A stretch of 64,000 nucleotides of DNA from Planoprotostelium fungivorum. Taxonomy: Eukaryota; Evosea; Variosea; Cavosteliida; Cavosteliaceae. The number at the start of each line of letters is the position of its first letter. The stretch's first letter is position 1. The stretch is from positions 186,001 through 250,000 of the forward strand of contig MDYQ01000207.1 of NCBI GenBank assembly GCA_003024175.1, written 5' to 3'. Shown in pieces: positions 6,539 to 60,355 of the stretch. The translations under genes were made by a program, and so were the position numbers. The notes beneath the pieces are model-generated. The model was not told the origin of the DNA. It did no database searches and saw nothing but the letters and a program-made list of their open reading frames with translations.

Positions 6539-8263
6539 TCAAACCTTTGATGTTCCGGCGACCAATTTACCTCCCACAAAGACACTCTCGATGTTTCGAT
6601 CGTCACCTTTCATCATCGTCAACCTCCATCACCATCATCCCGTCTCATCTCACCCATCATGACCATCTTCTCGAATATCTGTTCTTCATTCTCCCACTCG
6701 AAGACATCAAAAGGTCCTCCCTCTACAAACGGATCCACGATGAGTGCGTCAAACTCCTTCCCCGGCCAGAAATTTCCGACGCGTTCCCCCAGCCCCAACA
6801 CCTCTGCTCCTCCCACGGTAGCTAACGCGAAGGCCTCGCGATAACCTACCGAGTTGAACTCGCGGCCGAAGCGGAAAGTGTTGGAGGCGTTCATAGCTTG
6901 TCTTATGCTCTCCCACATAGAGGAGCTGTAGCCCCCAGCGACGTCTGTACCGAGACCGACCTGGCAGGTTGTAGACGATGAAATTTCGATGGGAATTTGA
7001 CACCTTGACGCCCTTGTCGAGTGCGTTCCTGACGTTGAAGACGCCGGAGGCCAGCTGGAAGTTAGAGGTAGGGCAGTGACTGATACCCGCGCCTGCATCT
7101 GCGAATTTCTGCAACTCTTCGTCCTTCAGGTAAACACCGTGAGCCATGACACTCTTCTCGTTGAGTAGATTGTGCTTCTCGTACACCTGTATGGGTCAGG
7201 CTCGTTGTAGATGGAGATATTTCGATGAAATTTCGAGACGCACGTCCGTGTAGGATTCGCATTCGGGGTGGAGGTCCTTGACCCACTTGACCTCGTCGCA
7301 GTTTTCAGAGATGTGCGATTGGATGGGCACGTTGTATTGTGCCGCCAGCCTCCCCAGCCCCGTCATGAGTTCCGTGGTGCAAGAGGGAACGAAACGGGGG
7401 GTGATGATGGGTGTCACCAATCTACAACCAGTCAACGACTGTTACGTACGATTACGTATGGGCTCACCTCTTACCCTCCTCTCCCGAGGCGAGGCAGTAC
7501 TGGATGAATTCTTCCGTATCTTTCAGTGAATTCTCTGTGGATTCCACGTAGGTCTCCGGGGAGTTTCGATCCATGTTCACCTGTGCACGATCATTTGTGC
7601 CACCGGCCTCTCCCACCCACCTTTCCTACGTAAGCCCTCTGTCCCAATTGGTTGATGATCTGTACGAGTAATTTGGTCGCAGGCAAATGAATGGTTGCGT
7701 AGTAACAACCAGTCGTCGTACCCAAAGATAAGACTCTATCTCATCATCAGCGACCATGATGTCTATCCAACGTGCGATTGCAATGACATGGGTATCACCT
7801 CTTCACAGCCTTCGTATATGCATGCTCTGCGATCTGGAGGTCTGCGTATTTACTCTCTATGGGGAACGTGTAACGGTTTAACCACTCGAGAAGGGGCAGA
7901 TCGGTTCCAGTTCCTGTCGATGATCATCAGTGCGACTGGAGGGAGATGTATGATGTCAAATCACCTGTGAATGCATATTGAGGTGCGTGTAGATGAGTGT
8001 CGATGAGACCGGGAATTAAGAATCTGAATCGAGGTCAGGTAATGGGTTGTGATGGATCGATGATCTCACTTTCTACCCAAATTCGTCACTTGATCGACAG
8101 AGAATCCGTATACTTCAGATAACGTCTTCACATCGCAGCCGTTTCCAACAAATGATATGGTCCCCTTCTCACTGACACCTACGATGGCATCGTTCCACAG
8201 TTGGAAATCATCCTTGTGCAAGCTCAGACAATGGACGAGAGTTCCTCTGAAGATCCGAGTCAT
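6539..8263 (-). CDS. GDA: Guanine deaminase
   Basis: Seen: an ATG at 8263 starts a multi-exon gene. Ordered hallmarks are [22 protein letters not shown] (metal-binding HxH), [20 protein letters not shown] (metal His), [17 protein letters not shown], and [17 protein letters not shown] (metal Asp). It ends ...[11 protein letters not shown] at 6539. Known: the amidohydrolase-fold enzyme uses zinc to deaminate guanine to xanthine in cytosolic purine salvage. All visible catalytic positions are kept, so it is probably active. At least three introns (about 6965-7001, 7200-7250 and 7411-7456) carry the GTTGTAG repeat core described in the findings, and two of them share an AAATTTCATCG stretch as well. 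It is divergent from importin beta. Confidence 0.9.
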
Positions 8264-8810
8264 TTGGAATGATGCTTTGTTTGTAAATGTGATGGATGAT
8301 CTTCTGACGTTTAGCCCGCTCGCGACGACATTCCAACTTCATTTTCTCTTCACCTTCTCTAGTTCCTTACCACACGAAAGTCCCTTCACTCGTAGTGCTG
8401 TCCAGCACGAAATGACAATAAAAGAGTAAGTTTTATTCTTTCTACATTCGTCATCACTTCATGATTGCGTTGTAGACGGAGAAGTCTCCCGCCAAGAATC
8501 GGACGAGAAAAAGCAGACACAGGGCTTGGCCTGTTTTGCTGTGTCTACATTTTAAAACATTTCAATCTTTCTCATCCACAAGAGGCATCCTCCGCGCGAC
8601 CAGATCGTACGTAGCTGCCTTATCATCTTAGTGGGTGGCAGTTTGGATCTTTGGTGAAGATTTACAGTCCATCTCCTCTCGCCATCGTGATCGGATATGT
8701 CTGATCTTCATCACGATCGATGGCTTCTCTCATCCCTCTCTCTTGACATTTTTCTAAATCAAGACAGTTTAATACGCTGCATCGAAACACAAACAATCAG
8801 AACATAGAAC
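8264..8810. other. Divergent promoter region, guanine deaminase / importin beta
   Basis: 547 bp without supported coding sequence between two head-to-head genes. The importin start at 8811 is preceded by an A-rich leader. No TATA box, RNA gene or repeat could be assigned with confidence. Confidence 0.4.
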
Positions 8811-57335: not shown

Positions 57336-57891
57336 GTCGTCTGTTCGTTGTTAAAAATCTGATTTCCCGCGTCTTTTCTTCGCTATTGTCACGTGACGCA
57401 CAACCGTCACCAGCAACAGTTACGACTTCATAGACATAATGACTTTCATCTACTCTATCATCCTCATTAAGAGTTTGAACTCTTCACTTCCTCACTAGTA
57501 CATGTCCAAATGTTACCTGCACATCATCAGCTTCTTCATAAGATGTGGGTAGACGGGAGAAGTAGATCCAACACAGACGTGAATATCGAGTGGATCTCTA
57601 AAGAACACGGTATCGCTCGTGCGAGGTGTACCACCCCGTGAAAATAAAATGAAATAATCAAGTTGAAGATTGATTCCATTCAAAAACAAAAGCAAACATC
57701 TGATGATGGCTAACGCTGGGTAACCATCACCATCCTCGATGTCTATTGACACTCTTGCACCAGAACACAGATATGCAGGTATTTCTCGACGACGGGAAAC
57801 TGTTTCTACGGTAATCAATGCAATTTTCAACATTCTCGTGTTCCTGAAGAACAGCCACCCTCTTCTTGTGAGAACTCCGACTCCATTTTGG
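57336..57891. other. Divergent intergenic region, LIG1 / PAN3
   Basis: 556 bp. A minus-strand frame at 57513-57833 (106 codons, no intron, no domain) is open and could be a small gene, but a plus frame reading into PAN3 overlaps it. Neither is supported enough to call. Confidence 0.3.
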
Positions 57892-60355
57892 ATGGTCTAT
57901 GCATCATTTCTCATATGGACAGCGACGTCGGCGGGAAGAGCGGCGAAGGCTCAGATTACGTGTAGAAATATCGCCATCCATGGTTTCTGCAAGTTTAAAG
58001 ACAAGGGTGATGTCATACATTCTACCCTCAGCGGCTAAAAGAGGGAGGTTGCGAATACAATCACGATGCACCGCGCATCATCAGCGAGAGTCCGACAAAG
58101 AAGAACACGATGGAATATTCCATTCCATCTCTACAGCCCTTGACTCTGTCATTCGATGGAGGGAATGCAGATGATACAAACAACGGTGACACATCTCTTT
58201 GTCTCTCCATTCTAATGTCAACCAGCCTATCCCAGGAGAGCACCGTTCTATGGAGCTCACGAACCACTCAATGTGATTCCATATCATCCATCATCATCTC
58301 GACATCTCACGTCCCTCTCAGTACAATCAACCTCCACCCAATCCCGTCGTTTACACGGAAGCAGCCTACGGAAAGAGGAAGATGCACACCTTCTTCATGG
58401 ATCAAGAATTAAGACGCGCGCTCCTGTCCAAAGGTCTCATCGCACACGAGACCCTCCCCACCACCGGTGAAATCTCTAAGAATCTTCCATCTACAACGCT
58501 GACGTACGCAGATTCCAGGAAGAAAGACATACCCAACACGGTGGGAAGATATTCGAGTTTATTTCCGCTGGACGAAGTGAAGAACCAGAGCCACGGATCA
58601 CACTCTACGTCCACCATGGCCTTTGGTTATCCGACCAATGTCTACAAGTGCATCAGCCAAGCGGACGGGAAACATTACGTCATACGCAAGATCGAGGGTG
58701 GGTCGTCTACAGCGTTGTAGATGGAGCTGACGGTGCAGGATTTCGTCTGGCCAACGAGACGCCACTGAGGATGGGAGAGACGTGGAAGCAGGTGAATTTT
58801 CGAGGAAATTCGAGTGGTGAACTACAACGAGGCAGGTGATTCACCCCAGCGTCGTTCGTCTGCACGAGATTTTCATCAGCAGAGATTTCGGAGATAGCAA
58901 CGGTGAGGCACGATTATTTGGTACGCTGGGCTAAGAATAGCCTCAGCCGTTTTCTTTGCATATCAATATTTTCCTGCCAGCGAGACGCTCGAAAGTCGAT
59001 ACATCAGCAACAATCATTCTATTTTCCCCGTGAATGATCCATTGCCCGAGTCTGTCATATGGTCTTGCATATTACAGGTATTTTATTTTTCATCTACAAC
59101 GAATCATCACATTTGATGATGATCATCATGATGACATGATGATCATGATGACGTGATGATCATGATGACGATCACAGATCTTCTCTGCATTGAAACACAT
59201 CCACTCCTTAGGCTTAGCCGTCCGCTGTATAACCCCATCCAAGATCCTCATCACCCAGAAGAATCGGTGAAATTTCGACTCGCGACTCTCTCTCACCCCA
59301 ACAGCTTCCGTCTATCTGGCATAGCCGTTCACGACGTCATCAGCTTCGACACGAACAAGTCACTCATCACTTACCAAGCTGAAGACTACGTAGCCCTCGG
59401 CCAACTGGCTCTATTTTTAGCCACCCGAAGCACTTCAGCGGCACTCCTTCCTACGAATTTCTCACTTTCGAGTGATCGAGGTGGTGTGGCGAGTGCAGTT
59501 CACAAGATACTGGAGGGAGTGGGAGCCATGTATTCAACCGAGCTGAAGAACCTCATCGGGTGAGTCATGATGCAGATGAGGACGTCTCGTCCGTCATGAT
59601 CACGAGGGTGACGAGAACAGGAATCTTCTCGGAAAGATACCGAACATGTTGGCGGGAACGGGAGGGGCTTATCCGGTAATAGAAGACATGCAGCAGATCT
59701 TGTGTAACAAATTGTGGGCAGAAGCAGAGAGCCTGTACTGGTGAGTTTTCACCGAAATCTCGCTCCATCTTCCCAGTGGAGCACTTCTCCATCCCCTCGT
59801 GGAGAATCGGCTGATTGTAGACAGCCAGAACGATTACTTGGAGGGAGAGTTGTACAAAGAGACGGAGAACGGAAGGCTGTTCAGGCTCTTGGTGCGATTG
59901 GGATTTATCAACGAGAGACCGGAACACGATATGGACCCGACGTGGTCTGAGACAGGAGATCGTTATCTCCTCAAATTGTTCAGGGACTACGTCTTTCATC
60001 AGGTGATGATCGTGATGATGTGATGATGATGATGACGGTTGGGTAGGTCTACGAAGATCAATCGCCCGTTGTAGATTACGCACATGTTGTAGAATGTCTG
60101 AACAAGGTCAGTACCATACATCATCCATCACATCAACTCATCACATCACCATCAGAACCATCATCAAGTCCTCTGACACGAAAACAGTTGGACGTAGGAG
60201 CAGATGAGAAGATCGTGTTGACCAGCAGAGACGAGCAGAGTGTACTCGTCGTCTCGTACAGAGACCTGAAGAGATGTGTCATGGAGAGCTTCTCAGAGTT
60301 GATCAACAAGAAAGGCTTCAACTACGCTCAACCGTACCACGGCTACAACAGATAG
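57892..60355 (+). CDS. PAN3: PAN3, regulatory subunit of the PAN2-PAN3 deadenylase
   Basis: Seen: a CCCH zinc finger near the start ([17 protein letters not shown], then after a 41-nt intron [10 protein letters not shown]), a disordered linker, [19 protein letters not shown], a pseudokinase domain ([71 protein letters not shown]), a coiled coil and the C-terminal knob ([51 protein letters not shown]). Known: PAN3 dimerises, binds poly(A) and Pabp, and recruits PAN2 for cytoplasmic mRNA deadenylation; its kinase fold is naturally inactive. The start at 57892 keeps the finger in frame; an earlier Met at 57739 is possible. Introns at 58698-58738 and 58790-58833 carry repeat cores. Confidence 0.93.
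58698..58738 (+). repeat. PAN3 intron with near-palindromic repeat
   Basis: 41-nt intron with GTCTACAGCGTTGTAGATGG, differing by one base from the perfect palindromic copies in ASCC3 and LIG1. Confidence 0.65.

Follow-up and report, generated by a model that had tools for sequence, protein, structure and literature searches.

A recurrent two-part motif in the short introns of Planoprotostelium fungivorum as a putative DNA-level dimer site, partly propagated by introner-like introns

A short core, GTTGTAG or its complement CTACAAC, recurs in the introns of unrelated genes in a stretch of 64,000 nt from Planoprotostelium fungivorum (contig MDYQ01000207.1 of assembly GCA_003024175.1, positions 186,001 to 250,000; hereafter, the window). 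Core or paired form was present in 31 of the 186 introns modelled in the window. The core often forms one half of a two-part site with a fixed spacing, and its carriers are clustered by gene and by region. We tentatively read it, at somewhat less than an even chance, as a DNA-level dimer site for a putative binding protein, hosted by tiny introns and partly propagated by introners, i.e. elements that create introns.

Abundance, form and placement of the core

Genes were predicted with an exon/intron hidden Markov model trained on the window and 200 kb of contig C1 and refitted with 40 kb of contig C4. The modelled sample comprised 304 kb of 36.9 Mb (the window, C1:1-200000, C4:1-30000 and C4:40001-50000); C4 had been selected for motif richness, so that shares given for the 304 kb should not be read as unbiased estimates for the genome. 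The first fit gave a median intron of 43 nt, donors of the form AG/GTGAG (slash, splice junction) and CAG acceptors. The refitted model called 873 introns, about 2.9 per kb, which extrapolates from this non-random sample to roughly 100,000 introns.

The word GTTGTAGAT was found 29 times on both strands of the window, compared to 0.35 expected, and none of 100 shuffles reached 29. Of these copies, 26 overlap modelled introns and three are exonic; some (259-359 and 59092-62302) lie outside the span in which an earlier note, made from the letters of the window, had described the family. Genome-wide, CTCGTTGTAGAT has 2,299 copies (1130 + 1169) and its reversed control 8 (1 + 7), while RTCTACAACG has 10,297 against 177 for the reversed control; 93 of the 119 RTCTACAACG copies in the 304 kb are intronic. 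Chance as the source of the core was rejected on these counts. For CGTTGTAG, intron sequence (45.5 kb) has 111 copies, exon sequence (154.3 kb) 26 and intergenic DNA (104.2 kb) 10, hence no intergenic enrichment of the kind expected of promoter-type placement was seen in the sample. Some exonic copies resemble coding repeats (Ile-Tyr-Asn) in one kinase gene; the kinases form a large family (C1:184k-190k and genome-wide), one gene having an Ile-Tyr-Asn-rich repeat region. The window also has a companion word, GAAATTTC, at 14 sites, of which 10 are intronic.

The earlier note had claimed about 30 introns with the core in both orientations, with subfamilies and head-to-head palindromes, and had named intronic enrichment and an excess over shuffled sequence as checks; all of this agrees with the counts obtained. 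Its gene names ASCC3 and DNA ligase I were borne out by alignment to solved proteins. Residues 2 to 387 of the ligase stretch align to ligase I with a one-residue insertion in the human chain, away from the motif introns, as the sole gap, and residues 1-674 of the ASCC3 stretch align to 896-1569 of human ASCC3. At least eight ASCC3 motif introns had been claimed, and 10 were found among the 29 introns of this gene. A Pfam scan of one 60-residue piece of the window gave no match.

The full site, ATCTACA-NNNN-TGTAGAT (ATCTACANNNNTGTAGAT), has 876 copies genome-wide (control, 0), the spacer being ACGT in 287. In the 304 kb, 25 copies of CTACA...TGTAG have spacing 4, and the only other occupied spacings from 0 to 15 are 6 (1), 7 (2) and 11 (1). 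Among intronic paired sites, 12 have no arm mismatch, 12 have one (8 at the outermost base) and 2 have two; sites with three mismatches (6) are as frequent as at other spacings. The arms are nearly fixed, whereas the spacer differs from ACGT in 14 of the 26 intronic sites with ≤ 2 arm mismatches. In a hybrid form, CTACA...GCCA, spacing 4 was found 34 times and ten other spacings up to 10 were found 0-6 times each. TGGC...GCCA gave no peak at spacing 4 (5, compared to 1-8 at other spacings), and inward-facing TGTAG...CTACA was absent at spacings 0-9 and found once at 10. One-mismatch variants of the core change the inner 8 bases in 19 of 64 cases and the outer 2 bases in 45. The outermost pair is A..T in 876 sites, mixed in 684 and G..C in 64 (expected, 913.5, 609 and 101.5). 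This excess of mixed pairs argues against hairpin pairing; it looks as if one strong half-site were needed. The inner pairs hardly vary and thus say little on compensatory base changes. Two half-sites, a fixed spacing, a variable spacer and independence of orientation, as expected of a dimer site, were all found. We know of no binding-site family that the main motif fits, and the matches listed by a full-text literature search on the motif words concerned unrelated subjects only.

GTTGTAG or CTACAAC is present in 121 of the 873 modelled introns. Of these, 31 end exactly in GTTGTAG, 50 carry the sense core elsewhere and 54 the reverse; 14 introns belong to two classes. Neither orientation is preferred away from the 3' splice site (sense only 40, antisense only 40, both 10), and in introns ≤ 60 nt 65 of the 84 non-acceptor cores begin within 20 nt of the donor (antisense 29/41, sense 36/43). 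The acceptor-type sites read TAG/AT in 26 of 31 cases, compared to 26 of 130 other TAG introns, the last two bases of the site being exonic; TGAC four bases upstream of TGTAG is their likely branch point. The earlier note had reasoned that splicing signals should be confined to a single orientation. This is only half true: orientations are even outside 3' splice sites, but sense GTTGTAG is itself often the splice signal, ending 31 of the 873 introns. The median length of motif introns is 39, 43 and 46 nt by class and 43 nt for other introns. Conservation around the core reaches background within about 12 nt in the average motif-intron profile.

Clustering and shared intron positions

Motif introns are unevenly distributed over 112 genes (chi 181; mean 111 and maximum 167 in 2,000 shuffles). 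On C1, they account for 3 of 188 introns at 0-90 kb, 8 of 132 at 90-140 kb and 40 of 208 at 140-200 kb, and the motif content of neighbouring genes correlates (0.26-0.37, p 0.0004-0.009). Within genes, motif introns did not lie next to one another significantly more often than expected (32 pairs against 29.0, p 0.24), and they are rarer near the start of the coding sequence (first fifth, 12/116 compared to 93/366). Words of the GAAATTTC type occur in 23 of 123 other introns of motif-rich genes, 17 of 238 of intermediate and 2 of 262 of motif-poor genes. The palindrome TGACGTCA was found in 11 of 113 other introns of motif-rich genes against 5 of 240, and TTCCCGCC and TCACGTGA each in 7 against 1 in the same comparison; neither of two control words was enriched. 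The densities per kb in introns, exons and intergenic DNA are 0.99, 0.04 and 0.07 for TGACGTCA and 0.29, 0.14 and 0.04 for TTCCCGCC. We take these three words to be CRE-type, E2F-type and E-box, respectively. Words of these types are sites of dimeric DNA-binding proteins, and here they are enriched in introns and motif-rich genes; in contrast to the usual sites of these types, they stand in introns rather than in intergenic DNA. Since copies of the two-part site gather in particular genes and regions of the chromosomes, one may guess at a role in gene bodies or at the chromatin level.

An intron position shared by kinase paralogues was examined using the ISDFG region as query, which gave at least 144 matches; 16 were fetched, picked among those beginning near the junction. 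In all 16 and in the C1 gene, a phase-0 intron directly follows the same Lys codon; five of the 16 introns were read by eye as GT..AG, uncalled by the model, and the L071 piece ends before DFG. The motif is present in five of the 17 introns, as a paired site (L065, L066, L067), as a hybrid (L068) or in the 3'-splice-site form (C1:184602), and absent from 12. Other kinase matches (e.g. C38, C267, C259) cross the position with no room for an intron. Different layouts at one position indicate that the site also arises inside existing introns. Intronization of exon sequence is unlikely, VKISDFG being intact around the kinase intron of the 3'-splice-site type. The biotin-carboxylase-like paralogues L050 and L052 have motif introns 2 nt apart, and three other fetched paralogues read through that position (two by eye, with no model call). 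A further intron has an identical position in L050 and L052 (LQ/VEHP). The neighbouring paralogues C4:25642 and C4:28538 are about 40% similar in the part of the protein that was compared; their introns at the same position have 24 identical bases (CCATCTACAACGAGCCACTCTGAC) and differ in the remainder.

The two-part constraint, the free orientation, the use at splice boundaries and the several layouts at one position favour a site acting at the level of DNA. We infer that the core may be the recognition site of a putative dimeric, sequence-specific DNA-binding protein. Its half-site is [A/G]TCTACAAC(G); two of them head to head form the full site, and one half-site with GCCA at the same 4-base spacing the variant. 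The site lies in gene bodies, introns being where it is tolerated. It stands there in one orientation or the other between donor and branch point, or else spans the 3' splice site and supplies the acceptor with its own TAG. Short introner-like introns carrying the site have spread part of the copies (F1, below, and probably others). How the site is built and constrained, where it lies and how it clusters are thus shown, as is copying for F1; protein binding, its DNA level and any function are inferred.

Copied introns and competing explanations

Clustering of introns by similarity, as the earlier note had proposed, did yield groups of near-identical introns: an all-against-all comparison gave 238 same-strand pairs at a score ≥ 17 and none in shuffles, some pairs being simple repeats or gene duplicates. 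One subfamily, F1, is defined by the 26-mer CTACAACNNGCCACTCCTGACCCTCC, with 70 genomic copies within 2 mismatches (control, 0), some of them gene duplicates. For the window intron at 38960, 13 more matches were found in the genome (88-100% over 30-48 bp), one being the window intron at 55099. Twelve other F1 loci (L039-L050, 501 bp each) were all modelled as introns; ten end in the shared tail, and the paralogues L039 and L042 are reversed, with GTTGTAG as acceptor. F1 was found in at least four non-paralogous genes (window 38960, window 55099, C1:191294 and C1:112694) and 10 further contexts, with L043/L044 and L039/L042 each counted once and non-paralogy judged from exon sequences only. Similarity extends near both splice boundaries, as judged by eye and not by the published pipeline; for the average motif intron it does not reach both. 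In a myosin gene, an F1 intron lies at a junction which is uninterrupted in all seven matches that span it; of the remainder of the 12 rows, two are the gene's own exons and three stop short, and the equally scoring C35 and C112 may be one duplicated locus. This intron looks newly gained. F1 behaves as an introner; it calls for copying, which is likely for further introns too. With the core masked, motif introns ≤ 70 nt (108 of the 121) gave 42 similar alignments at a score ≥ 12 (shuffles, 0), and an equal-sized sample of other introns 15 (shuffles, 2). As side observations, C351:17678-17714 (L044) and C351:41440-41476 (L043) are an inverted duplicate with the same F1 intron in a gene which is presumably E2-like, and C1:122647-123229 and C1:199087-199989 are gene copies with identical or near-identical introns, apparently from a recent duplication with further partial copies.

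Compared to introner elements as characterised in the parts of Gozashti et al. 2022 (PMC9860276) drawn on here, F1 introns are likewise similar in unrelated genes, found in both orientations and present in more than four copies; the stretch in which they are similar begins about 3-12 nt downstream of the 5' splice site and runs up to the 3' splice site. The system described here differs in that F1 makes up a minor share of the motif introns, that target-site duplication gave no clear signal, that the motif also occupies intron positions shared by paralogues and that the two-part site is constrained. An analogous system in an amoeba did not appear among the literature matches listed.

The earlier note had taken the two orientations as favouring inserted elements, with introner-like elements as the best known parallel, and this is borne out in part. 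Very short, bidirectional introner-like elements might have made most motif introns. The core would then be a terminal or central repeat of such an element, retained either through the young age of the copies or through a requirement for mobility. We regard this as less likely than not, but as a close competitor of the site reading. The dispersed near-identical F1 introns in both orientations, their 12 modelled loci, the myosin intron, the near-restriction of the motif to introns, the similarity beyond the masked core and tandem units inside three introns argue for it. As the whole explanation it is opposed by the several layouts at one kinase position, by nearly fixed arms around a variable spacer and by F1-like sequence in only 4, 6 and 11 of the 121 motif introns at ≤ 2, ≤ 4 and ≤ 6 mismatches. 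Motif introns are hardly longer than others, and 12 tests on them gave no clear signal of target-site duplication (z between -0.5 and 2.5, with the maximum for upstream versus downstream exon over all motif introns). Not all introners require such a duplication. Non-family introns are fewer in 15 motif-rich genes (2.6 per kb) than in 30 genes without the motif (4.7) or 22 with few (5.4), but motif density and other-intron density were not significantly correlated (Spearman -0.17, p 0.19). Total introns per kb in the three classes without, with few and rich in motif are 4.8, 6.7 and 5.7; replacement and addition of introns are both compatible with these figures.

Several points weigh against the DNA-level site that we prefer. 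A partner similar beyond the core was found for 35 of the 108 motif introns at a score ≥ 12 and for 65 at ≥ 10 (one pair in shuffles), so that copying explains a sizeable part of them. Genes denser in the motif also tend to be denser in introns overall (Spearman 0.27, p 0.03), as expected of added introns. The near-absence of the core from intergenic DNA would be odd for an ordinary transcription-factor site and points to introners or to a gene-body function. The kinase and biotin-carboxylase comparisons are between distant paralogues, the kinase set having been picked. Finally, the gene models are our own predictions from the sequence, and the boundary at 39802 looks wrong: the intron starting at 39725 probably ends nearer 39787, since the modelled end removes conserved residues.

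A wider form of the site reading, which we consider unlikely, is an intron-hosted DNA code. It would comprise about ten thousand two-part putative protein sites and companion palindromes, mainly in 40-nt introns of regionally clustered genes and dispersed in part by introners bearing the site, with selfish introns supplying a gene-body regulatory layer.

An RNA-level splicing element, i.e. GTTGTAG/CTACAAC in the pre-mRNA bound by a splicing factor or pairing with an RNA, and thereby defining 40-nt introns, is improbable. It would suit the 31 motif introns (of 121) whose 3' splice site is GTTGTAG, TGAC being the likely branch point, and the cores close to the donor. However, both orientations are equally common elsewhere and 752 of the 873 introns lack the core. 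Folding was not in excess in motif introns (mean z -0.52, n = 108; -0.60 for 150 others), and together with the lack of covariation at the outer pair this also disfavours an RNA hairpin. Very improbable is a recombination or integration site of a putative enzyme, with the 4-base spacer as strand-exchange or target segment and F1 introns as cargo; the variable spacer of fixed length between inverted arms, the GCCA hybrids and the two widely varying bases beside the core in the otherwise nearly constant F1 (left free in the search pattern) would suit it, but conservation fades within about 12 nt of the core and the spacers are mostly NCGN among the paired sites listed.

Motif introns of the window, known systems and meaning

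The motif introns of the window are compiled in the table. Apart from these, long low-complexity open frames with overlapping strands were observed at 12082-12618.

Table. Modelled introns of the window that carry the core or the paired site (positions within the 64,000-nt window).
Feature	Position	Strand	Motif
Motif intron	261..308	-	3' splice site is GTTGTAG
Motif intron (guanine deaminase according to the earlier note)	6961..7003	-	antisense core and GAAATTTC
Motif intron	7187..7243	-	antisense core and GAAATTTCATCGAAAT; one other genomic match
Motif intron	7422..7467	-	3' splice site is GTTGTAG
Motif intron	11772..11809	+	GTGAGTCCATCTACAACCCGCC
Motif intron	11937..11976	+	sense core
Motif intron	18315..18355	+	3' splice site is GTTGTAG; GAAATTTC upstream
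Motif intron	19151..19296	+	sense core
Motif intron	19932..19967	+	GTGAGTTGGCTCGTTGTAG
Motif intron	20264..20316	+	sense core close to donor
Motif intron	22486..22525	+	paired site ATCTACA-TCGT-TGTAGAT
ASCC3 motif intron	38960..39036	+	unit in two direct copies, the second being F1 (introner-like) sequence
ASCC3 motif intron	39725..39802	+	sense core
ASCC3 motif intron	41645..41809	+	3' splice site is TGACTCGTTGTAG
ASCC3 motif intron	42247..42336	+	antisense core and GAAATTTC
ASCC3 motif intron	42529..42571	+	GTGGCTCGTTGTAGATGG; junction within the stretch aligned to the solved protein
ASCC3 motif intron	43180..43351	+	antisense core
ASCC3 motif intron	43830..43868	+	ATCTACAACCCGCCACGTTTT, in common with a contig C4 intron, reversed
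ASCC3 motif intron	43954..43993	+	GTCTACAACCCGCCA
ASCC3 motif intron	44750..44815	+	antisense core
ASCC3 motif intron	45249..45290	+	perfect paired site ATCTACAACGTTGTAGAT
Motif intron	47519..47582	+	antisense core
Motif intron	51754..51850	-	sense core and GAAATTTC
DNA ligase I motif intron	54887..54925	-	paired site
DNA ligase I motif intron	55099..55138	-	F1 (introner-like) copy
DNA ligase I gene motif intron	56247..56309	-	antisense core
Motif intron	58467..58511	+	antisense core
Motif intron	58698..58738	+	paired site GTCTACA-GCGT-TGTAGAT
Motif intron	58792..58835	+	antisense core
Motif intron	59078..59177	+	antisense core
Motif intron	62296..62334	-	3' splice site is GTTGTAG

Introns of 40 nt are usually assumed to carry little besides splice signals. 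Here, 121 of 873 introns carry one orientation-free core, often as a pair with fixed spacing and concentrated in particular genes and regions. Introns of Caenorhabditis elegans, too, harbour a DNA feature, the periodic An/Tn clusters (PATCs), which, in the portions of the study consulted (PMC7725773), are A/T-periodic stretches tested in 250- and 900-bp introns; in contrast, the signal described here is short, exact and palindromic, and the introns have 40 nt. An anti-silencing role of the motif would be a guess. Families of sequence-similar introns, some internally symmetrical, are also described in the consulted portions of work on the stwintrons of Hypoxylaceae (PMC12403724, PMC8469720), but those are nested U2 introns; here, three introns have tandem units.

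If the core is a protein site, tiny introns would carry a genome-scale signal at the level of DNA. If it belongs instead to mobile introns as their core, it would mark a very large system of very short introners working in both directions. Either reading makes it testable how new introns originate and whether regulatory sequence comes along with them.

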